Shown: in pieces, positions 13,365 to 29,712 of the stretch
Layout of the letters: each line of letters opens with the position of its first letter
How positions within the stretch are numbered: position 1 is the first letter of the stretch
DNA from: Saccoglossus kowalevskii
Lineage: Eukaryota > Hemichordata > Enteropneusta > Harrimaniidae
Reading direction: 5' to 3'
Length of the DNA stretch: 32,894 nt
NCBI RefSeq assembly: GCF_000003605.2
Contig: NW_003145799.1
Coordinates: forward strand, 8,151-41,044
Program-made: the position numbers and the translations under genes
The notes under the pieces: model-generated
Seen by the model: the letters and a program-made list of their open reading frames with translations, nothing else
What the model was told of the DNA's origin: nothing
Databases searched by the model: none

Positions 13365-13940
13365 ACTATAAAATGTCTGGGTGAGGCACATTTTTCCACA
13401 AAATATTCAACTTTCTTATATGGTTGAAATGTATGATCTTGCTGCTAAAGTGGATCCGTGGCCATATAGGATTGAAGTATTCACAAATGTGTTTTTTTTC
13501 TTTCACAGAACTACTTGATCCAATGAGCATGTTTGATTTACGTATCAAATGCTCAAACAAACAATCCGTTCAGTAATATTGTTTAATTTATTATGGTTAG
13601 CCTTATAATGGTATTAACCTAAAACAATGGTCCTCACAGGAACGATTTAATTACATTTTATTAAAGATGAAAGAGAATTGTAATTAGGATATAATCACAA
13701 TAATATGGTATCATTTTGTTTGCCATCGATGGTTTCCATAGTACCATTGACCTCGAAAAGCTTACATGCATAATAATTCATATTACGACAAATCTTATTA
13801 AGAGAAAGACATAAAATTATATAAAATAACTTGCTTGCAAAAAACATAATTTGTGTGAAAATAGTAAAACAATGTGGAAACACTTATATACACAGTGAAA
13901 GTATTGTTACGGAAATCGTTGAATACGTAGCGATTTTTAT
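13365..13940. other. AT-rich unassigned DNA after the end of copy 1
   Basis: I see no gene. An inverted instance of the ~50-bp module lies at 13,721-13,772 (minus strand: CATGTAAGC, GAGGTCAATGGTACTATGG, AAACCATCGATG). The overlapping short frames on both strands (13,366-13,560, 13,695-13,883, 13,798-13,995) show no family resemblance. Confidence 0.5.
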
Positions 13941-14380
13941 GATGGCACGATCGCCTAACAAGAACACCGCCACGCCCTGCCCATGCAGTAATCACGTGGA
14001 CTCAAAGGGGCCGTTGGTTGACAACACGACGAGAAGAAAAAGTCGTTGAAAAAAGGATAAATTCACTTAGATAAAGCAACACAGTCGCCTAGATGGGTTC
14101 TACAGTGGTTCCGACTTGTGAACGAACCTATGTCGGCAGAGAAATGTCAAAGAGAGAGATCTTATGACTAAATCAGTTTGGAGCTCGTCAGCAAAGTACT
14201 ACTCGCATAGACGCCATTGCAGAGAGCCGCCAGCAAGAAGTCGCTCGCGAAGTCTCGCGAGAGTTGGTTACCTAGTAACCCAGAGGGTTTCCCTTACAGT
14301 ATTCAAGATAAGGTATGAGAGTGCCAAATGTGTTGATTGGATAAATTAAAATTAGCATAAATCCAATATGGCCGCGATAA
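13940..14380. promoter_or_regulatory. CpG-rich patch with promoter-like motifs (TCTCGCGAGA and an RFX X-box)
   Basis: The base composition changes sharply from the AT-rich surroundings. TCTCGCGAGA is present exactly at 14,253-14,262; this palindrome is a known core-promoter element of TATA-less housekeeping genes in animals. A related CTCGCGA half lies at 14,244-14,250. GTTACCTAGTAAC at 14,267-14,279 fits the RFX X-box consensus (RTNRCC, one spacer base, RGYAAC). CCAATATGGCCGCG at 14,362-14,375 loosely resembles a YY1-type site. A TTTTCCGGCTTCTCTTCT stretch at 14,403-14,420 resembles an ETS half plus a polypyrimidine initiator. I could not identify a transcribed gene on either side, so this may be an orphan promoter, an element-borne promoter or a chance cluster. 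Confidence 0.35.
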
Positions 14381-14736
14381 TATAATTATTTGATGTAACT
14401 TCTTTTCCGGCTTCTCTTCTATATGGCATAAGTAATAAATGTAAGATGCAAGAATACAATTTTAAACAGAATCATACAGTACAGAAAAGATGTAAATAAA
14501 TGGTTTCCTGGGTAGACGGATGCTTCATCTGCATAAATCCAACATTGCCGTCACATCTAAAAGAAAAACTAGAGGAATGAAACACTTTTGTTGGATCTAC
14601 AAATCTGCAATACTATATACATAATAGACCATTTAAACGTAAATTTTCAACTCTATAAACGATATTTTTGATTTAACAAACTGTATTAAACAGTTATAAT
14701 TCTGTCCAAGAGTTAATTAATTGATTAATGTAATTG
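14381..14736. other. AT-rich spacer between the CpG patch and the DIRS-like block
   Basis: No gene is seen. It holds a second copy of GCATAAATCCAA.nTnGCCG (14,531-14,550) that also occurs at 14,355-14,374. On the minus strand this stretch would be the 3' flank or untranslated region of the chimeric YR-CXC frame. I see no clear AATAAA close to that stop codon. Confidence 0.4.
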
Positions 14737-15249
14737 CTAATCATCATCGCTATCATCATCAGATATCTGAACTACATTTGTGCATCCAGATCCTCGACAT
14801 TGACCACAAACTGGAGAACATTCAAGGTTGTGCTTTCTGCAGGTACATATGAGACTGCGACAGTCTGTGGAGCAGTTGCATCCCACTATCCTCAAGAGAA
14901 ATTCAGGTGCTGCGTCCTTTTCAGTCATTAAAGGAATGACGATCGGTAGTGGATCGCGTCCTGGGATTTGCTTCCTGGCGAGAAACCTGATTTGTGTCTT
15001 TATCACGACTTGATTGTCCATAAAAGTGACACACCCGTCCGAGGACATGGCCCCTAGCTCAGCCTGACGCCTACCTGAGGCAAGGGTGAGTAGGAAGAAT
15101 GTTTTCAACGTCAAATGTTTGAGTGGTGCTGATCGGAGTGGCTCAAAGGGTGGTCTGCTTAGAGCATCCAATACAACTGATAAGTTCCTCATTCGGGGTC
15201 TAGGCCTCTGATTAAACAGTAAACAGTCTCCCAATTGTAGGACAACCGG
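14737..15249 (-). CDS. Chimeric frame: YR catalytic start joined to a CXC-like cysteine-rich domain and acidic tail
   Basis: A minus-strand frame is open from after a stop at 15,250-15,252 to TAG at 14,737-14,739, about 170 codons. The first ~95 residues are DIRS-type tyrosine recombinase: LSRPPFEPLRS, LTLKTFFLLTLASGRRQAEL (the second R of GRR lies at the usual first catalytic Arg) and FLARKQIPGRDPLPIVIP. Instead of the rest of the recombinase (His-x-x-Arg and Tyr boxes) the frame continues into GCNCSTDCRSLICTCRKHNL and then ECSPVCGQCRGSGCTN. That is a regular cysteine array like the CXC-type tails of many invertebrate proteins, and it ends in ISDDDSDDD. There is no ATG at the open start. It may be a fortuitous fusion, an exon, or a captured domain. 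Confidence 0.55.
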   Translation of the reverse strand, partial: PVVLQLGDCLLFNQRPRPRMRNLSVVLDALSRPPFEPLRSAPLKHLTLKTFFLLTLASGRRQAELGAMSSDGCVTFMDNQVVIKTQIRFLARKQIPGRDPLPIVIPLMTEKDAAPEFLLRIVGCNCSTDCRSLICTCRKHNLECSPVCGQCRGSGCTNVVQISDDDSDDD

Positions 15250-15489
15250 CTAGCCATGTCCCCAGAGAATCCCAATGGTGGTTGACAAGGCTGACCTATA
15301 GCCAACACTCGCTGTAAGGAAAAGTCCATTTCATTCAAATGATAGACGAAAAGTCATCTGTCTGGCCAACAAAGGGATTGCATGGTACTCCCTTCCACTA
15401 CACCAATCAGTGTATGCACGTCATTTAGAGACGTAGGCTGTGTTGGTGGGATCCCTGTTTGCCCTGGCCAGGACGTTGGCAGCCCACTC
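15250..15489 (-). pseudogene. N-terminal (SAM-like) part of the DIRS recombinase, with stops
   Basis: In one minus-strand frame I read EWAANVLARANRDPTNTAYV (from 15,489 down), a TGA at 15,421-15,423, then RAYTDWCSGREYHAIPLLAR, another TGA, and later YRSALSTTIG before the stop at 15,250-15,252. This is the usual N-terminal core-binding region of DIRS recombinases (a 'Y.S+W..+..WC' segment, then 'GYRSALS'). Two in-frame stops inside it and one before the catalytic half mean no full-length recombinase can be made here. Confidence 0.7.
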
Positions 15490-16260
15490 AGAAAAAATCT
15501 GAGTGAGTCAACTGAGATCCTTGATGCATGTAAGTGGTACACCGCTGGGCTCAAAGGCAGTGCGCCGTCCGGTTGGGAAGCAGATCTGGAAGTCTGGAAG
15601 CACCCCTGGTGTTTTGACTAACATTTCCAACAGTAGTGAAAGCCAGACCTTGTTTAGCCTGTTGGGCGCCACCCGCGTCAAAGTGCAGATGCGCTGCTGT
15701 CAAAGTTTCTCCAGTACACAGTGAATAGCGGGAAGGGAGGAAAGGTGTACAAGTCCATGTGGGTCCACGGGGGTCGACAAAGTGTCTCAGGTCCAGGCTC
15801 CTGGAGTCGGCAGGAGTGTCATGTACGTCGGGAGCTTGGTGTTCCAGGGTGTGGTGAATAGGTATAACCTTGGATCGTCCCACCGTCGAAACAGTCTGGA
15901 GGTTACCCATTGGGGTATCCGCCACTCCGCATTCTCGAGATGGAGCCGCCACGAGAGGGCGTCTGCTTGACTGTTTCTCGACCCTGGAAGGTGGTGTGCG
16001 GCTAGCTGCACATTGTATTCCAGGTACCAGAAGAGAATTTGCTCCATTAGGACTGACAACGATGGGGATCTGGTCCAGAACTATGGGTAGAAAGTGAAGT
16101 AGTGCTAAGCGCAATTCTTTCTTTCCCATAAGAAAGCCCGGTGTTGAAACTAAAGTGCGTTGTAACGGCCTGCTGTGTAACACGGCCTTGAAGTACTACC
16201 CTCCAAACCGCAGACATTTTTCTGATGATCCGCATTAGTTCTCGGAGGGACACAGAGGGA
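15490..16260 (-). pseudogene. DIRS RNase H and C-terminal connection domain, frameshifted
   Basis: The domain is spread over all three minus frames. From 16,253 down there is VSLRELMRIIRKMSAVWRVV (start of the RNase H region). The frame at 15,787-16,059 then has YNVQLAAHHLPGSRNSQADA (with the conserved Asp near 15,962), where the expected Arg after DALS is Trp. That frame continues to RLFRRWDDPRLYLFTTPWNT and LPTYMTLLPTPGAWT. A frameshift leads to DLYTFPPFPLFTVYW at about 15,740, then VWLSLLLEMLVKTPGVLPDF at about 15,640. The segment normally containing the TDN motif before the HLPG region is missing, which suggests an internal deletion near 16,050. Confidence 0.75.
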
Positions 16261-16830
16261 ACGCTGACTAGGCATTCGGCTAGTTCTTCTCGGCAACGGG
16301 CCTACAGCGACCGTACCAAGCCCACCTCTGTGTCGAACTCCCTGGCCAGGAACACCAACTGTTGTGTTGGCTGAGGGTGGGACTTACTAGGTAGCACAAC
16401 TGGTCTATAAAATCTGGTGTTAGCCTTACTGTTTGACTAACCACCCCTTGTTGGGTTGTGTAGCAACCAGCCATCTAGGTACATGTTGATATGTACTGAT
16501 GTCATGTGTACCAGCGCAGCAGTAGCACCACCTGTTTCCACACTCTGGTGAATAAATATGGAGCAATGCAAAACCTAAATGGGAGCACCCCGTGCTTTAC
16601 TACTTGGCCCAACTGGGCGAATCAAGGGAGTCGCTGAGTCACTGGATGTATCGGTATGTGCGGGTAAGTATTGCTCAAATCTAGCAAGGCTAACCAGTAG
16701 AAACAGAGCACGGAGAATAATATGGTGCTCGGCGTTTCCAGGAAGCTCATACTGATTTAGTCTGCTTAAGTCCCGAACGGGGGCTGGTGTCGGGGGGGTG
16801 ATCAGTACCTTGTAACTGTATATCGCCACC
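16261..16830 (-). pseudogene. DIRS reverse transcriptase remnant with YLDG active site
   Basis: Fragments in different minus frames are in the right order: VLPFRFCIAPYLFTRVWKQV (start 16,588), then HINMYLDGWLLHN with YLDGW at 16,467-16,481, then PTQQLVFLAREFDTEVGLV. The catalytic loop of DIRS RTs is YLDD, and here the second Asp is Gly. Frameshifts separate the fragments, and a TAG follows the YLDG segment by about ten codons. The fingers region upstream (16,575-16,829) is too degraded to align by eye. Confidence 0.75.
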
Positions 16831-17208
16831 TGGAGAGTCTAGGGATCAGTTATGCGCTGTCTTTAAACCAGAATACACTGGCGAAATCAGTGCTACAGAG
16901 ATGTGTGGATTTGTTGGTTCCACGTCAGGGTGATCTCTCCTCCGCTGAGGTAAGACCCTGTGAGGCCCGTAGAAGTCGATAGGTTCCGACTCTGCAAGCG
17001 GAAGCATCAAACCTGCTTCCCCTGTGAGCGGGGCAGGCGACCCCTGAGGAAGAGGGGGACTACCACCGGGTCCCTTCTTCGTGGGGGCATGTCGCCAATC
17101 TTCCCTCCACCCGAAAAAACAGGACGCTTGCCTCCTGGCTACTTCTGGCCAGTGGGTGCTGACTTTGGTAGTTACGTTTTCTCAGCTTGGGTTCCTTACC
17201 TCTTGCCC
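16831..17208 (-). pseudogene. Gag C-terminal/linker region of the DIRS-like element, decayed
   Basis: One minus frame shows a basic and proline-rich stretch (MPPRRREPGGSPPLPQGSP) typical of the nucleic-acid-binding end of DIRS gag proteins, before the RT. Stops interrupt all frames. The plus-strand frame at 16,960-17,454 is a shadow of this GC-rich region. Confidence 0.4.
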
Positions 17209-17625
17209 TTAGAAGCCAAACTGGCTTGCGAGTCTCACCTGTACCAACTGGTCAGTGGGATCCGAAGCACTGAGACTGCTCCTTCCATCCTCAAAAAAGA
17301 AGAGAGTGGGGGAGGTCCAGCCTGCGTAACTGAGGCGGTGGTGCGCCCAGTGAAAAACAGCCCAAACCGCATTCTGGTGTACAGAGGCAGCCCCTGCCAA
17401 GAGAGCAAGATGACACTGCAGGATATCCAGCGTAGCCATATGGTGTCCCACTAACGGCTGTGTCTGCTGGTCTAGGAGGCTGGTGCATTTCGCCATTGTG
17501 ACTTGAGAGTGCTCGTGGCGCAAAATAATTCGTTCCAGTGGGCTGGCCACAACTCGAAGGCTGAGGATCGCCATTCTGCTCTCAGTGCGTGGATTGTTTC
17601 CGACTAACTGGTCGAAATATTCCAT
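17209..17625 (-). CDS. gag: Gag-like frame of the DIRS element (partial)
   Basis: The frame runs from ATG at 17,623-17,625 to a stop at 17,209-17,211, about 138 codons. It has a helical segment rich in Leu, His and Gln (GHHMATLDILQCHLALLAGA, then AVWAVFHWAHHRL). A Ser/Asp-rich stretch, SSLSASDPTDQLVQV, lies near the end. Its position just upstream of the RT remnants is where DIRS elements place their first ORF. The function would be nucleoprotein assembly of the retrotransposon; this is inferred from position and composition, since gag proteins of this class are poorly conserved. It probably stops early compared with an intact gag. Confidence 0.45.
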   Translation of the reverse strand: MEYFDQLVGNNPRTESRMAILSLRVVASPLERIILRHEHSQVTMAKCTSLLDQQTQPLVGHHMATLDILQCHLALLAGAASVHQNAVWAVFHWAHHRLSYAGWTSPTLFFFEDGRSSLSASDPTDQLVQVRLASQFGF

Positions 17626-18055
17626 TAACCCGGCCACCCCCTTTGCCCGGCCCACCGAAGCAAAACAATTCGTGGTACTGGGGTTGGGGGAGGAACCGAA
17701 GGATCCGATCTGGCGCGAGATTTGACTCCAGACTCGCTCGATTGGTTAGCGCTTAGTCCAGCGGAAAAGGTTGAGCATAAAATTGACTTATCCTAAGGAC
17801 TTAGGCCTCTATCCCGCGGGGACCAAGGTCCGCCCATCAACACTGTCTGTGCGTTCCCCCTACATCCAGCACTCGGTGGGATCCAAAGCAATAGCGAATG
17901 CAGGACTCTGGATCTCGGAAGTGACAGTCCTACCGGGAGTGACTGTTTCAGAATCGAGGGTGAACATCGGGTCACTAGGATCGATGTTCCCCCCTCACTC
18001 ACGGAGTTATTACGAAGAACAGACTCCGAGTGGCCACGCGAAGCTGCACATTTAA
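17626..18055 (-). repeat. 5' terminal region of the DIRS-like element with hairpins
   Basis: This is GC-rich non-coding sequence upstream of the gag-like frame. It contains GAACATC..GATGTTC (inverted, about 17,963-17,990) and CACTCACGGAGT with ACTCCGAGTG (inverted, about 17,996-18,034). Such foldable ends fit the terminal repeat of a DIRS element, but I could not find its partner at the other end. The 94-96-codon frames on both strands here look like products of the high GC content. Confidence 0.45.
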
Positions 18056-18080
18056 ATGATACTTGATGAATTTTGACAGT

Positions 18081-18095
18081 CATATTGGATTTATG
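18081..18095 (-). repeat. 15-bp inverted match flanking the DIRS block (right arm)
   Basis: CATATTGGATTTATG is the exact reverse complement of CATAAATCCAATATG at 14,356-14,370. A related direct copy lies at 14,531-14,550. The two arms bracket the GC-rich block. They may be ends of a composite insertion, or a coincidence in AT-rich DNA. Confidence 0.4.
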
Positions 18096-18296
18096 AAAAA
18101 GGGATTGCTATTCTATCAAATGTTAATCATAATCATAATAGTACATCTTAGAATAGAAATGAAAACAAATGCAGGAAATAATCATATACATAATATCATT
18201 TTTTAAATATATGATGTATCAGGCAAACTATCAAACAATTACTATTTAGTCATCATTGTATCAAAACACAAATTTGACCTATTTTTATTGTGTAGA

Positions 18297-22994: not shown

Positions 22995-23690
22995 TGGTGA
23001 CCACAATGACACCATTTGCTTAAAAGAATACAAATCATTGCACTCCTTCATTTGGTTGGGAAGCGAGTTCTACATTTTAGCACCATAATAAGACAATGAC
23101 TCCAGTCCATAGCGTTTTGTCGATTTAACTGTAATTGATGAGAATTTCTCAAATTGTACGTTACGTTTTTCTCCTTGTATAAATCCCACATAAACGATGG
23201 GGAGAGTTTGTTCACACTTTTATAAACTTTAACAAGTGTGTCACGATTCCTGGACATCTCTAGGGTTTGTAGTCCAGCACGTTCCAATAAAGTTTGATAG
23301 CTGGACTGAAAATCATTGTACACAAATTTCAAAGCTCTGTATTGAATACGCTCCATCTTAGCAATGTTTACTTTACCACGAAAATTCCAAACTAAAGAAC
23401 CATAAGTAAAATGTTATAAAATAAAACATCTAAATATACATAGTCTTGAGGCTTGATCTAAATAGCCAGAAATCCTTTGCAAAACTTTCAATTGGGCACC
23501 TGCCCTTTTACACAGAACACTAACATGATGATGACAATTTAAATTCTGATCAATATTAATCCCGAGCAATTTAACACTAATTTCAGTTTCAATAGCAACA
23601 CCCCCAATACTAAAAGTGGTATTGTCAGATTGGTCATTTAATATAATTGCTTGAAATTTATTTATATTAGCTTCCATCATGTTATCTTTG
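22995..23690 (-). pseudogene. LINE ORF2, RT thumb and C-terminal domain
   Basis: Two minus frames cover this region. At 23,414-23,680 is the post-active-site region with 'MEANINKFQAIIL', KLLGINIDQNLNCHHHV, and an 'LCKRAGAQLKVLQRI' segment, all typical of the CR1-like thumb. At 23,048-23,356 is the C-terminal stretch MERIQYRALKFVYNDF, with YQTLLERAGLQTLEMSRNRD and LYKEKNVTYNLRN, common to many invertebrate CR1/L2-like elements. A frameshift or gap near 23,360-23,414 separates them. A further frame change inside the last 50 codons breaks the expected 'LSYYGAKMW' end near 23,060-23,090. Confidence 0.8.
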
Positions 23691-24400
23691 AACCATTTGA
23701 CAGCTATTTCTGACTTTTGAGTTAAGTTGTTTATCAGCTCATTTTTATTTGCACCAGCAGCTGATATAGTATTGTTATCAGCATAATAATAAAGTGATAT
23801 ATTTCTAGATATTTAAATAGGTCATTTACAAAAGTATTAAAAAATATTGGCCCTAAAACAGACCCCTGTGGGACCCCCTTACATAAACTGAGTCAGTCAC
23901 TAACATGCCTAGATAATTTGACTCTCTGCTTTCTAGATGTAAGATAAGACTAGATAAAAGCACATCCCTCCACTGACATGCCATAGGCTCTCAGCTTGGC
24001 AATTATCAGCTGATGGGAGAGACAGTCAAATGCTTTACTAAGGTCCATAAGGATGGCTCCTACTTGTTGCTTGTTTTCTAATGCAAGCTTCCAGTCTTCC
24101 ACAAGACGTAAGAAGACATGTTGACAACTATATCCCTTTCTATAAGCTGCAATTTTAGAATCCCAGATATGATCCAGAAAAACTGACATCTCTTTATGAA
24201 TAATAGTTTCCATAACCTTAGATAGAGATGGCAATATACTAACTGGTCTGTAATTTTTATAACAAGTCTGTTGTCTTTTTTAAAAAGTGGTACAACCTCA
24301 GCTAATTTAGCATTTTCAGGAAAAATACTCTTATCAATGCATTGGTTGAATATGGTGGAAATATGGCATATACTGGAAGCACCATGCCTCAACAGCCTTG
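23690..24400 (-). pseudogene. LINE ORF2, reverse transcriptase core with YADN active site
   Basis: Motifs in order on the minus strand are AEVVPLFKKDNR (about 24,285-24,310), a frameshift, then LSKVMETIIHKEM, RKGYSCQHVFLRLVEDW and the motif A segment ILMDLSKAFDCLSHQL with its Asp near 24,044. A stop follows near 23,950, then GVPQGSVLGPIFFN (about 23,835-23,877). A frameshift leads to YYYADNNTIS, where the second Asp of the usual YADD is Asn (codon at 23,774-23,776). The element therefore cannot make a working RT. The relative order and motif spelling fit the CR1/Jockey superfamily. Confidence 0.85.
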
Positions 24401-24618
24401 GCGGTATATTGTCATACCCCGTGGCATCCTTGTAATCATATGATTTATTATTTCTTCCACACTCTCAGGTGTTGTGTGACAAAAAGAAAAATTACACAAA
24501 TTTCAAATTCTGTTTTATATTAATGATACTATGGTGATCTTTAAAATGTCTTCACAAAGATTCACACATTTAATGTTTGAAGTATCATGTTCATTGTAGT
24601 GTAGATCAATGTGGCCAC

Positions 24619-25060
24619 CTATCTGTGACGCAATATTACATAAAAGTCATTCATTAAATTGGAAACATCGCAAGGATTTGTTTCAATTTTGTTGTTTGTT
24701 TCAATCATTATAGAACCACTATCTTTATTGCCCTTGTATGTCAAAAAGGGTTTGATAGTTTTCCAAAAGTCACTATGTTTGGGTCCCTTGTTACATTTAT
24801 TTTTAAAATAGTCGTTAATGGCCTGCTTACGAATTGAAGTTGTAAGATTTCTTTGGCGGTGGTAAGCTTCCCAGTTGTCATCAGTTGTGTTCTTATATTT
24901 ATTACGAAGGCGTGTCTTAACTCTCACCGCCCTCCTCAGGGTCTTATTCATAAAAGGGGCATCTTTAGCCCTTACTTTCAACTTCTTTAAAGGAGCATGA
25001 TCATCAATCACGTCCTGTAACATGCATTGTAGAGCCCAAAAATTGTCCGAGGGGCCATGG
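24619..25060 (-). pseudogene. LINE ORF2, endonuclease-RT linker
   Basis: The frame at 24,619-25,023 has IDDHAPLKKLKVRAKDAPFM, then Arg/Lys-rich NKTLRRAVRVKTRLRNKYKN, then FWKTIKPFLTYKG. The 'HAPLKK..VR....PF/WMN' linker and 'FWK.I.PF/L' words are characteristic of CR1-like ORF2 proteins between endonuclease and RT. It joins the endonuclease frame with a one-base shift at about 25,065-25,075. Further towards the RT the frames are interrupted (24,400-24,619) and probably partly deleted. Confidence 0.8.
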
Positions 25061-25623
25061 AAATTTGACAGACTGCCAAAGGAATAAAATTGACATCCTT
25101 AGCATATTCATCAATGTCAAAATTGTTATAATTGCGAAAAGTTATACTTTTAGCTTGAAATCTTGGCGAAAGAAACTTCATTATCACGAAAATCACATTA
25201 TGGGAGTCGCTCACTCCATTACTTACCCGATTACCCGATTTGGCATATTGTGATAGATTGTTTATTAAGATTACATCAATAAGCGAGGGTCCATGAATTG
25301 TATAATTTGTGGGTTCCTTAATTAGTTGCGTAAGATCATATTGGTCACATAGGTCCGATAAAAGTGCTCCTTTGGACCGCACTAACATGTCAAAATTCAA
25401 ATCGCCCATCAGACATATACTTTTGAAATGTTGATGCGCTAGATCCAGCATATCTGACATATAATCGTTAAAAATGTTATTAGGTATCTTAGGGGGTTTA
25501 TACGCCATAACAAATAAACACTTACTGCTCCTATTTGGGTTCACTTCAATAGCAATGGTTTTCATCGCGGACTTACTTTCATACTGTTCAAGGCGCCTAC
25601 AAGGAATATCGGACAACCTAAAT
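25061..25623 (-). pseudogene. LINE ORF2, C-terminal half of the AP endonuclease
   Basis: This minus frame encodes LEQYESKSAMKTIAIEVNPN, MAYKPPKIPNNIF, ICLMGDLNFDML (the GDLN catalytic motif), PSLIDVILIN and GVSDSHNVIFVIM (the SDxH-type end of the nuclease). These are the later motifs of the apurinic endonuclease domain that nicks target DNA in LINE integration. The first half of the domain is missing at the 5' truncation near 25,623, where the sequence meets the gypsy LTR. The ATG used by the longer open frame (25,652) lies in LTR sequence and is not a real start. Confidence 0.8.
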
Positions 25624-25955
25624 ACAAGATTAATAGCCCTTAAATAGGCCATGGCTCGTAAATCATAAGGAGGTTGGCTTTCATTTGGGAAAGAAATGAA
25701 ATATTTCTAAATGGTATATTCTAACTGTCCATTGCCATACATGGCTATGTGACTTCAAGTAAACCCTGGTTAATCAACTTGACTCTTAATGAGTTCCTGT
25801 AGGAAGTCCAAGTATTCTAAAATAAATAGAACCTCATATGTTTCCTGGCCTGTATCTTCTGGGAGGGTCAAGTATCTCTCATTAAACTGTGTGTGACCAA
25901 CTCCCACGCATGGACTTGCACTTAACACTATTCAGCTCTGAAAAATATCATGACA
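25624..25955 (-). repeat. 5' part of the gypsy 3' LTR (U3), with a TATA-like box
   Basis: It begins TGTCATGATATT directly after a polypurine tract (minus strand GAAGAAAGGGGG, 25,956-25,967). It ends at the LINE junction just after GCCTATTTAAGG (about 25,638-25,649), a plausible TATA-like core promoter. The LTR start next to the tract is the expected layout for plus-strand priming in LTR elements. Confidence 0.55.
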
Positions 25956-26465: not shown

Positions 26466-27560
26466 TTAAAAACGTCTAGACAGAGCATCCGCATTGTTGT
26501 TTAATTTCCCACTTTTGTGAAGCGTCTGTTTGTAATATGAATTCACATTCAAAGTCAGGGCTTTTCAGCACTGGCTCAGTTGTCAATGCATTTTTCAATA
26601 TATTGAAAGCTTCTTCACGTTGCTCACTCCAAACAATATTGTTGGGTTTATTTTTCTTGATCAAGTCAGTTAATGGACTTGCCACACTAGCAAAATTTGG
26701 GATAGATTTTCGGTAATAGCCTACTAATCCTAAATATGCTCGTATGTCTTTCTTAACAATTGGTGTGGGGAATGCCTTGACTGACTGAATTTTCTCTGGG
26801 TCTGGTTTTACAGTTCCCTTAATTATGTGAACCAGAAATTTGACTGAATCTTTTCCAGCACGAAATGTGTCTGGCTTAGCTGTTAGACCTGCCTGTATCA
26901 ACCTCTTTAATACCGACTTAATGTGTTTCAAATGGCTAATCCAGTCATTCTTATAGATGATGATGTCATTAAATAAGTCTCTGACAAAGTCAGTGCATTT
27001 GCATAATATTTTATCTAGCAATCTTTGAAAAGTAGCTGGGCTGCCCTGGAGTCCAGAAGGCATGACTTTATACATATAAAGCCCAAACGGGTTACAAATG
27101 CTGATTTTTCCCCTGGAATTTTTTCCAAGGGTAGTTGCCAATATCCCTTTGTGAGATCAATGGTTGTGTAAAATTTTGCCTTAGTAACTTCATCAAGAAT
27201 TTCATCAATGCGAGACATTGGATATGCATCAAATTTAGAAATACTATTTAGCTTCCTGAAATCAGTGCACAAACTTATAGTATTATTTTTCTTTGGGACA
27301 ATTTCTATGGGTGATGTCCATGGTTCAGATTCCTCAATGATTCCAGAAGCCAGCACACTCTCAATTTTTTTTTTACTAGATATTTTGTAGCTGGGGGAAG
27401 CCTATAAGGCTTTTGCCTAATTGGTACTTCGCTAGAAGTTTGTATTTGGTGTTCTACCAAATTGGTTCTCCCAGGTACATCAGTAAACACATATGCATAA
27501 CTTTGCAAGACAATGTAACTCAGTGGTTTGTTCAACAGATAAGTAATCATCTACATTTAC
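26466..27560 (-). pseudogene. pol: Gypsy reverse transcriptase and truncated RNase H
   Basis: From 27,550 down I read VFTDVPGRTNLVEHQIQTSS and PIRQKPYRLP, then after a frameshift ASGIIEESEPWTSPIEIVPK, LCTDFRKLNSISKFDAYPM and TTIDLTKGYWQLPLEK. After a second shift come FGLYMYKVMPSGLQGSPATF and a catalytic loop reading LFND where YLDD is usual (Asn codon 26,968-26,970). Next are the thumb (GLTAKPDTF, PDPEKIQSVKAFPTP, YLGLVGYYRKSIPNFA) and the start of RNase H (FILQTDASQKW). The middle of RNase H is deleted. The final NNADALSRRF and stop codon (26,466) follow in another frame. RT is very probably inactive. Confidence 0.85.
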
Positions 27561-28030
27561 CTGTTCCCAAGTAAGGGTTTTTGTAAATCCAGGTGCCAAC
27601 TGTGACTCATCCTCCTCATTTTCCCCATCACTGTCAAACACAGCTGGATGTACATATCCTTCCTCCCATTCAGCTTTATTTGCATTCATTTCCTCTGTAA
27701 CATTTACATTCAGACACTCTCTCTCCACATATAATCTTAACATATTGACATAGAAAACTTTACTTTTCTTTCGTCGTTTTCCTATTCCGATTTCATAATC
27801 TAACTCCCCCACTTTCTTTTTAATAATGAAGGGGCCCTGCCATTCTGCTTCCAGCTTGTTAGAACTGGTTGGCAAAAGAACTAAAACTTTGTGACCCACT
27901 TCAAAATGATGATACTGTGCATTTCTATAATATCAAGTCTTTTGACCTTTCTGAGCTTCCGCTAGATTTTCATGCACCAGGTTCATCATATCAGTCATTT
28001 TGGATTTCATATCCAGCACATAAGTCACCA
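27561..28030 (-). pseudogene. pol: Gypsy integrase C-terminal domain and linker to RT
   Basis: The frame (GTG or upstream start at 27,899) has GHKVLVLLPTSSNKLEAEWQ, GPFIIKKKVGELDYEI and KVFYVNMLRLYVERE. This is the SH3-like/chromo-type end of a Ty3/gypsy integrase, which usually reads 'W.GP..V......Y......K....H.NMLK.Y'. It continues into a long acidic linker (DSDGENEEDESQLAPGF) and then VEQTTELHCL, which leads by frameshift into the RT start. The continuous run from integrase tail to RT shows that integrase lies upstream of RT within the same polyprotein. Confidence 0.8.
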
Positions 28031-28900
28031 CACTTCACTCATCCACTTTACCACCCGTCCATGACTTTTTTACTACATCTAATGGCTCCCGAATCTGTAT
28101 TCCATAGAGTAATTCAACGGTGACTGTTGACTGTTGAGAGACCTCCCGACATGCAAATAATACATATGGTAAATAGGTATCCCATTGGGATAGGTTTTCC
28201 ATGGCACATTTACGCATCATATTTTTCAAAGTTTGGTTGAAACGTTTAATTAAGCCATTAGTTTCTGCATGGAAAGGACTTGATTTCAGGTGATTAATTA
28301 CCAAACTTTCACATAATTGCTTGGTAAGATGGGACATGAAATTTGTTCTTTGATTTGAAACTATTTCTTCTGGGATCCCTATCCTTGCAAATACATGAGT
28401 GATTGATTAGTGCTTCTGTAATAGTTTCTGAATCCTGGTTTCTAATTGCAATTGCTTCAGGAAAACGTGTTGCATGATCACAAACTACCGGAGCATATTT
28501 CATACCTCGTTTACTTCTTGGCATTGGTCCAATCATATATCTATATTTATTTTTTGAACGGTGTACTAATAATGTCTGATGACTGCAGTGGAGCTTTATC
28601 TTTACTTCTAATTTTCATAGTTTTCTGACAAGCATCGTATGGTCTACAGTACTTAGCAACATCAAAAAATATACCTGGTCAATAAAAGTTCTGCAACATT
28701 CTTTGTTTTTTTTTTCAATACCTAAATGACCAGCCATTGGTATTTCATGTGCTATATACAGTAATTCTGACCTACACTTTTGAGGTACTACGATTTGAAT
28801 AAACACCTTCCCTTCGGGGTATTTTATAGACTTGCCCTTTGTTTTAGGATTGGGACTCCACTTCCTGTACAAAATATTATCTCTTACAAATGCCACTCGT
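28031..28900 (-). pseudogene. pol: Gypsy integrase zinc finger and catalytic core, catalytic residues lost
   Basis: The N-terminal zinc finger is visible: AHEIPMAGHLG with both His (28,726-28,749), then after a frameshift CRPYDAC (28,628-28,648). The core shows IGPMPRSKRG and VVCDHATRFPEAIAIRNQ. The first catalytic Asp, expected just before IGP, falls in a frameshift (about 28,530-28,545). The second, expected in a 'SDQGT'-like motif, reads SNQRT (Asn codon 28,353-28,355). The third, a Glu in the NGLxERFN motif, reads NGLIKRFN (Lys codon 28,245-28,247). The frame then continues with WDTYLPYVLFACREV. All three acidic positions are thus lost, so the enzyme cannot integrate DNA. Confidence 0.85.
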
Positions 28901-29147
28901 TCCTCACCTAAGGAACTTTATGGAACTGCTTTATCCCTCACCCCTTGTAATGTTATGTCCCCTGTCTGCAATCTTGGCAACTGAGTTGGGTCTAAATTTA
29001 GTCAACTTCCAGTTTCTTCCTGAACTTCTAATGCACTCGCCAACCCTTTATGAGCACTATTTCCTGTGTGTGACTATTTCTGACTGATTAATTGGCTTGG
29101 TGACTATCCCGCTTGCTTTGGCACTTTCGTTTTTTTTTTGTTCAATT
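28901..29147 (-). pseudogene. Protease-integrase spacer of the gypsy element
   Basis: On the minus strand, short broken stretches such as a 'VTRSQ'-like word would be expected here. I can only follow discontinuous frames with stops. A homopolymer run of T (29,129-29,138 on the plus strand) marks a likely frameshift site. No separate gene is present. Confidence 0.4.
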
Positions 29148-29402
29148 TCAGCTATTTTCTGACTGATTTCGTGTAATTAGAAAAACCAATTTACATGTAG
29201 TTTCTTCATCATTTCCTAACAAGAAGTCACACACAAGATCTGGGGTCACTCCTACCAAAATCTGTCCAGAAAAATACTCACAATGTACATTAACTTTGGC
29301 CAATTTGACCCCATATGCCCCAGGTTTAAATCCTTTTACAACTACTGTTTCACCCTCTAAATAATTTGCATCTTTAACAAATTTGGGGTGTACCAAAGTT
29401 GA
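29148..29402 (-). pseudogene. Gypsy aspartic protease, N-terminal end lost at the breakpoint
   Basis: The minus frame reads LVHPKFVKDANYLEGETVVV, then KVNVHCEYFSGQILVGV and DLVCDFLLGND. A '..CDFLLGND' end is typical of retropepsin-like proteases of gypsy elements, which process the polyprotein. The catalytic DTG/DSG motif should lie immediately before TLVHP. It is absent because the sequence switches at about 29,400 into a plus-strand gag fragment, so the residues before LVHP in the open frame are antisense gag. Confidence 0.7.
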
Positions 29403-29712
29403 GAGAACGTGAGTTGGAAGAATGAATGTGGCAACAGCATGAGGTGTTTGAGGCACGATTGCGTGTGTTGAGTAAAACTCAAGCTAATAATGCGATCAAA
29501 GTTCCAAAATTGGGAATACACGATGATATTGATGTTTATTTGAATGCTTTCGAACATTTGGCAATGATAAACAAAAATCGGAAAAAGAGTCTTGGTCAAA
29601 TAGACTGGCACCAGAGTTAACTGGAAAAGCCAGAGAGGCTTATACAGCACTTCCTTTGGAAGATGTGATTAATTATAATAAGTTAAAATTAGCCATTGTA
29701 AACTTATTATTA
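29402..29712 (+). pseudogene. gag: Gag fragment (SCAN-like region) in inverted orientation
   Basis: On the plus strand the sequence encodes a charged Arg/Glu stretch (RERELEE), then QQHEVFEARLRVLSKTQ, then VPKLGIHDDIDVYLNAFEHL. After a frameshift come LAPELTGKAREAYTALPLED and VINYNKLKLAIVN. This is the 'KLPKL...DDI..YL..FE....LAPxLTGKA..AY..L......Y..LK.AIL' pattern of SCAN-related gag proteins in gypsy elements. It points away from the neighbouring minus-strand pol, so the element has been rearranged. It stops abruptly where the C4 repeat begins (about 29,713). Confidence 0.75.

Follow-up and report, generated by a model that had tools for sequence, protein, structure and literature searches.

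An open frame joining a DIRS-type recombinase fragment to a CXC-like cysteine module in Saccoglossus kowalevskii belongs to a decayed interspersed repeat family

The open frame and its surroundings

We analysed a 32,894-nucleotide stretch of Saccoglossus kowalevskii DNA (hereafter, the window), on the minus strand of which an open frame of 170 codons runs from stop to stop across positions 14737..15249 and ends in TAG. The frame is made of two halves. Residues 1-106 (14932..15249, minus strand) are a DIRS-type tyrosine-recombinase fragment, recognised by eye from its likeness to DIRS recombinases in stretches including 'LASGRRQAELGAM' and 'PLPIVIP', and delimited by a five-copy alignment and by the position of the join. 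By eye, this fragment retains the first box, that of a catalytic arginine (GRRQAEL), together with the PIVIP stretch. The H-x-x-R and tyrosine boxes that come later in such recombinases are absent, and Pfam returned no match on the fragment. Residues 107-170 (14737..14931, minus strand), delimited with the help of paralogues in the same genome, comprise a lead-in peptide, a CXC-like module and an acidic tail, with nine cysteines in all and SDDDSDDD at the terminus. The Pfam domain preSET_CXC (PF18264) aligns with residues 123-152 at 18.1 bits against a curated cut-off of 23.3 (E 0.004); at E values up to 1 it was matched by six of ten copies, the best of which (E 0.00067, 20.5 bits) is also below the 23.3 cut-off. 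The nine cysteines are like those of known CXC domains (PF18264 preSET_CXC and PF03638 TCR), although the scores obtained here lie below the curated cut-offs. An earlier note on this DNA had described a frame of about 170 codons passing from a DIRS-type recombinase into a cysteine array with an acidic end, and this description holds: the frame is real, and we count nine cysteines. PDB sequence searches gave no match beyond GATA-4 at E 0.44, scans of viral contigs with the window frame protein, the CXC alignment and the recombinase alignment found no relative in any, and we found no literature that treats DIRS, a tyrosine recombinase and a CXC domain together.

Upstream of the segment, the same frame contains stops, and the preceding part of the recombinase (15250..15740, minus strand) is a pseudogene whose stops are common to copies elsewhere in the genome. 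Beyond it, all on the minus strand, lie an RNase H-like remnant (PGSRNSQADALSW; 15787..16080) and a reverse-transcriptase-like remnant with frameshifts and stops (YLDGWLLHNP; 16300..17181), both identified from motifs by eye, and a gag-like remnant (17209..17745), assigned by position only, which forms the beginning of the DIRS stretch. In a three-frame translation read by eye, the gag-like, reverse-transcriptase-like and RNase H-like remnants extend to about 18,040. Pfam found no matches on these three remnants, and their DIRS assignment rests on motifs recognised by eye. The G+C content is about 0.5 throughout the DIRS stretch; beyond about 18,100 it is 0.24, and on the other side, below about 14,700, it is about 0.3.

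The segment and the DIRS stretch are enclosed by the remains of terminal inverted repeats. On the 3' side, an A+T-rich non-coding part leads into the inner 3' terminal inverted repeat (14307..14736, minus strand), the outer part of which is present in other copies and missing here; on the 5' side, the inner edge of the opposite repeat occupies 18062..18135 (minus strand), after which the match ends and the outer repeat is missing. The window copy is therefore truncated, with both outer ends lost. Just outside the truncated end, a G+C-richer island (13900-14300, 0.45-0.50) carries TCTCGCGAGA and may be a promoter. Elsewhere in the window, also on the minus strand, we noted by eye broken frames of a non-LTR retrotransposon type at 23048-25706, with endonuclease and reverse-transcriptase pieces, and broken frames of Gypsy type at 26476-29483, with pieces of reverse transcriptase, RNase H and integrase.

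A join shared by many copies and the source of the cysteine module

When the 513-base segment was searched as DNA in the window's own genome (572 Mb in 4830 contigs), at least 42 matches were returned, the window included, with 40 of 284 candidates scored. The join is crossed, with at least 30 bases on each side, by 36 of the 42 matches listed, the window's own among them, and residue 107 marks the switch to the CXC module both in the window and in 29 aligned copies. The peptide of the CXC part, searched against the same genome, yielded 98 rows. Identity is 72% or higher in 49 of these, some being fragments of a single copy, 61-66% in 4 and 28-52% in 45; the last group includes at least two decayed members of the same composite family (C2720 and C4409). 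DIRS sequence adjoins the CXC part in all 30 loci fetched, the window's own included; these loci were the best rows of the CXC peptide search and hence a biased sample. Because it is common to dozens of copies, the segment is more than a chance open frame. An accidental juxtaposition, which the earlier note had named as the outcome that would undo its proposal, is ruled out as a one-off event, since a whole repeat family has the join; the number of listed matches that cross the join likewise leaves a one-off origin at this locus, or an assembly error, next to no probability.

The copies also bear on the state of the recombinase before the family spread. Two of the upstream stops are common to 14 of 17 and 18 of 19 copies, and a third column, shared by 18 of 18, we read as a change of frame. 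Therefore, the parent that was amplified already had a broken recombinase.

The donor of the cysteine domain, which the earlier note had proposed to look for, can be traced within the genome, where the module has matches at the C-terminus of a different protein family. Aligned with the window protein, one paralogue starts to match at residue 107 (L075, E 4e-19) and another at residue 103 (L076, E 4e-15), that is, at the join, with nothing notable upstream in either pairwise alignment, and in both of these paralogues, the two that were read, a different upstream protein precedes the CXC module. In L075, the module follows this different protein in broken frames and, like that of the window, closes with an acidic run (DLDDDDD). 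L076 has a frame of 263 codons that contains the stretches GDDTDLLVLL and ALSGCDTTS and finishes with the module; it has no acidic run, so that the acidic tail of the window is common to one of the two paralogues read. On the reading of these sequences, the cysteine domain would not be a DIRS ending. Pfam gave no match on L075 or L076. The DTDLLVLL and GCDTTS stretches of L076 resemble, by eye, motifs of FEN/XPG nucleases, and the CXC-ending family is possibly a transposon gene with a FEN/XPG-like nuclease; this link was not confirmed by Pfam, by the PDB search or by an AlphaFold model of L076, which from one-sequence input reached a mean pLDDT of 31. The family that ends in the CXC module is multi-copy, comprising L075, L076 and about 41 further rows at 28-52% identity. 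Two other CXC matches (G000:C2864:63182-63370 and G000:C2261:2059995-2060180) lie in open frames of 4751 and 1381 codons, for which masked runs of N are possibly responsible, L076 being itself partly masked.

Substitution pattern and decay of the frame

The earlier note had asked whether a clean frame below a recombinase full of stops could reflect selection, and had proposed a Ka/Ks-type comparison with relatives. For the window and 29 copies, we counted departures from the commonest base at each position; the mean divergence from that base is 5.9%. Over the whole segment, 584 non-synonymous changes, 229 synonymous changes and 42 stops were observed where 577.5, 248.9 and 28.6 would be expected in the absence of selection (ratio 1.10), and in the CXC part alone the corresponding numbers are 174, 62 and 11, against 176.1, 63.2 and 7.7. 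The changes appear neutral to either side of the join, and selection on the frame, as a property of these copies, was rejected on these counts; the test sees changes that followed amplification and is blind to selection on the parent. Both observations behind the question are correct, namely that the upstream half has stops and that the piece itself is clean, but the cleanness is not special. The window alone shows 20 non-synonymous changes, 10 synonymous changes and no stops, against 20.3, 8.7 and 1.0 expected; because its substitution counts are those of neutral change, with no stop where one was expected, its clean frame is ordinary luck among many copies. In this regard, the idea that a host gene exonised the fusion, now under selection at this locus, has the clean frame of the window copy in its favour and is very improbable in view of the same counts.

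The other copies have decayed further. A stop or frameshift interrupts the segment in 28 of the 29, the exception being L025, which is partial at its 5' side. The earlier suggestions of exonisation or of a new working chimeric protein are thus not supported, given the neutral changes, the broken state of these copies, the stops that copies share just upstream and the absence of the later recombinase boxes, and we found no sign that the fusion was kept as a working protein. What survives of the proposed recent fusion is an in-frame join of two unrelated coding sequences, and not a working chimeric recombinase.

It is nevertheless conceivable that the parent made a protein from this frame, with the first recombinase box and the CXC module, for example as a spliced exon that aided or regulated a transposase, and that only the copies died. 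If the commonest reading is taken at each codon column of the 29 other copies, the frame stays open over the join, between the shared upstream stop and the TAG end, which is kept in 25 of 26 copies; inner stops are never the majority reading, the most frequent being present in 7 of 26 copies, and the internal indels of the window relative to the majority measure 15 and 3 bp, as would suit a coding parent. However, the upstream bound of the frame is itself a shared stop, the commonest reading offers no methionine before 'FMDNQ', and a young remnant would be found in frame by chance at about one join in three. The neutral pattern among copies also speaks against such a protein, although it does not register selection on the parent. 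We give this reading a small chance.

The ends of the element and its probable origin

In copies that retain their ends, inverted terminal repeats of about 300-345 bp enclose the DIRS stretch and the CXC part, and the copies are sharply bounded, beginning with 5' TAGTCCAGTCA.. and finishing with 3' ..TGACTGGACTA (the 3' end also given as ..GCTAGAATGACTGGACTA). The two repeats pair over 293 bp at 80% in L037 and over 325 bp at 72% in L039, and in parts only in L032. Equal and variable 3-bp flanks were found in four of the six copies readable at both ends: L032 (TAA/TAA), L037 and L039 (ATA/ATA in each) and L044 with L007 (TTG/TTG). The other two copies lack equal flanks: L031 with L002 reads AAG/AAA and has its 3' end on the far side of an insertion, and L024 with L042 is altered at its 5' end. 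When 5' and 3' flanks from different copies were paired as a control, 7 of 127 pairs were equal. Terminal inverted repeats with a target duplication of fixed length, by which TIR DNA transposons are recognised, are therefore present in copies other than that of the window, the duplication in four of six. A comparison of the outer 60 nt with all remaining sequence revealed no internal complementary region in three of three copies: apart from the opposite terminal repeat, the matches of the outer 60 nt were only 11-13 nt long, with E values of at least 0.5, and a search that left out 380 nt at each end gave matches of 9 nt at most. Because of the inverted repeats, the matching 3-bp flanks and the absence of internal complementary regions, the carrier resembles a DNA transposon at its ends, with the DIRS stretch as its apparent cargo.

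These features also bear on how the inverted repeats are to be understood. It could be argued that a DIRS lineage itself acquired the CXC module, that the repeats are its own termini and that the copies are its dead members. Most of a DIRS gene set (gag-like, reverse-transcriptase-like, RNase H-like and recombinase, by eye) does lie between the repeats, and lengths of 66-316 bp are given for the inverted repeats of DIRS elements (PMC3266345). Moreover, among the 40 places scored, from 108 candidates, in a search with the 5' repeat, 21 have one or more of 51 join or CXC places no further than 8 kb away, and L077, the only one of the remaining 19 to be read, and that in part, carries the DIRS stretch too. 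Against this stands the same source, according to which DIRS elements leave no target duplication and possess internal complementary regions (PMC3266345), whereas here variable 3-bp flanks match in four of six copies and the internal complementary region is absent in three of three; the end of the recombinase is missing, and the upstream stops are shared. We rejected the inverted repeats as DIRS termini on the 3-bp flanks and the absent internal complementary regions, and regard an origin within a DIRS lineage as unlikely. An autonomous element with the same inverted repeats was not found among the 40 scored places, L077 alone having been read of the 19 away from the join.

Taken as a whole, the window most probably contains one member, decayed and truncated at both ends, of a composite DNA-transposon family that is non-autonomous. 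The original transposon, with a CXC-like module at the end of its last coding stretch, would have taken in a DIRS retrotransposon, or a DIRS element would have inserted into it. Deletions would then have taken away the transposon's own coding part and, from the DIRS recombinase, its 3' part, so that the N-terminal half of the recombinase came to lie in frame with the cysteine module. A transposase provided by another source would have copied the package between the long inverted repeats, duplicating 3 bp of target, and neutral decay of the copies would have followed. The inverted repeats presumably belong to the family of the CXC donor, and both mobilisation in trans and this order of events are what we infer from the remains. 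A mixed history, to which we assign a slim chance, is that a retrotransposon body lay within DNA-transposon ends and that the fusion protein of the parent, with its box and CXC module (perhaps a targeting factor or a repressor that binds DNA), amplified the package.

Non-autonomous or composite transposons with captured sequence are a known kind of element. The family described here is like them in its inverted repeats, foreign interior and many decayed copies, and differs in having captured most of a DIRS element. Its interior gene set, as read by eye and with no Pfam matches, resembles that of DIRS1-like retrotransposons, as does the first recombinase box; unlike them, the composite element has no full recombinase and, in the three copies compared, no internal complementary region, its 3-bp flanks match in four of six copies, and its DIRS stretch is cargo-like. 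Academ-type DNA transposons have an XPG-like nuclease and 3-4 bp duplications. The 3-bp flanks are alike and the L076 stretches are XPG-like by eye, whereas the composite element has no transposase; an Academ-like superfamily is only a tentative lead. Duplications of 3 bp are also reported for other groups, such as Zator (PMC10045372), and in bivalves Academ elements are reported to have expanded while DIRS elements are low in copy number (PMC10294476).

Our findings document an interspersed family in which apparent DNA-transposon ends carry most of a DIRS element, and illustrate how an uninterrupted frame within an old repeat can be mistaken for a novel chimeric gene. The CXC-ending protein family from which the module is known, with its many copies and no Pfam match in the two that were read, may deserve a closer look.
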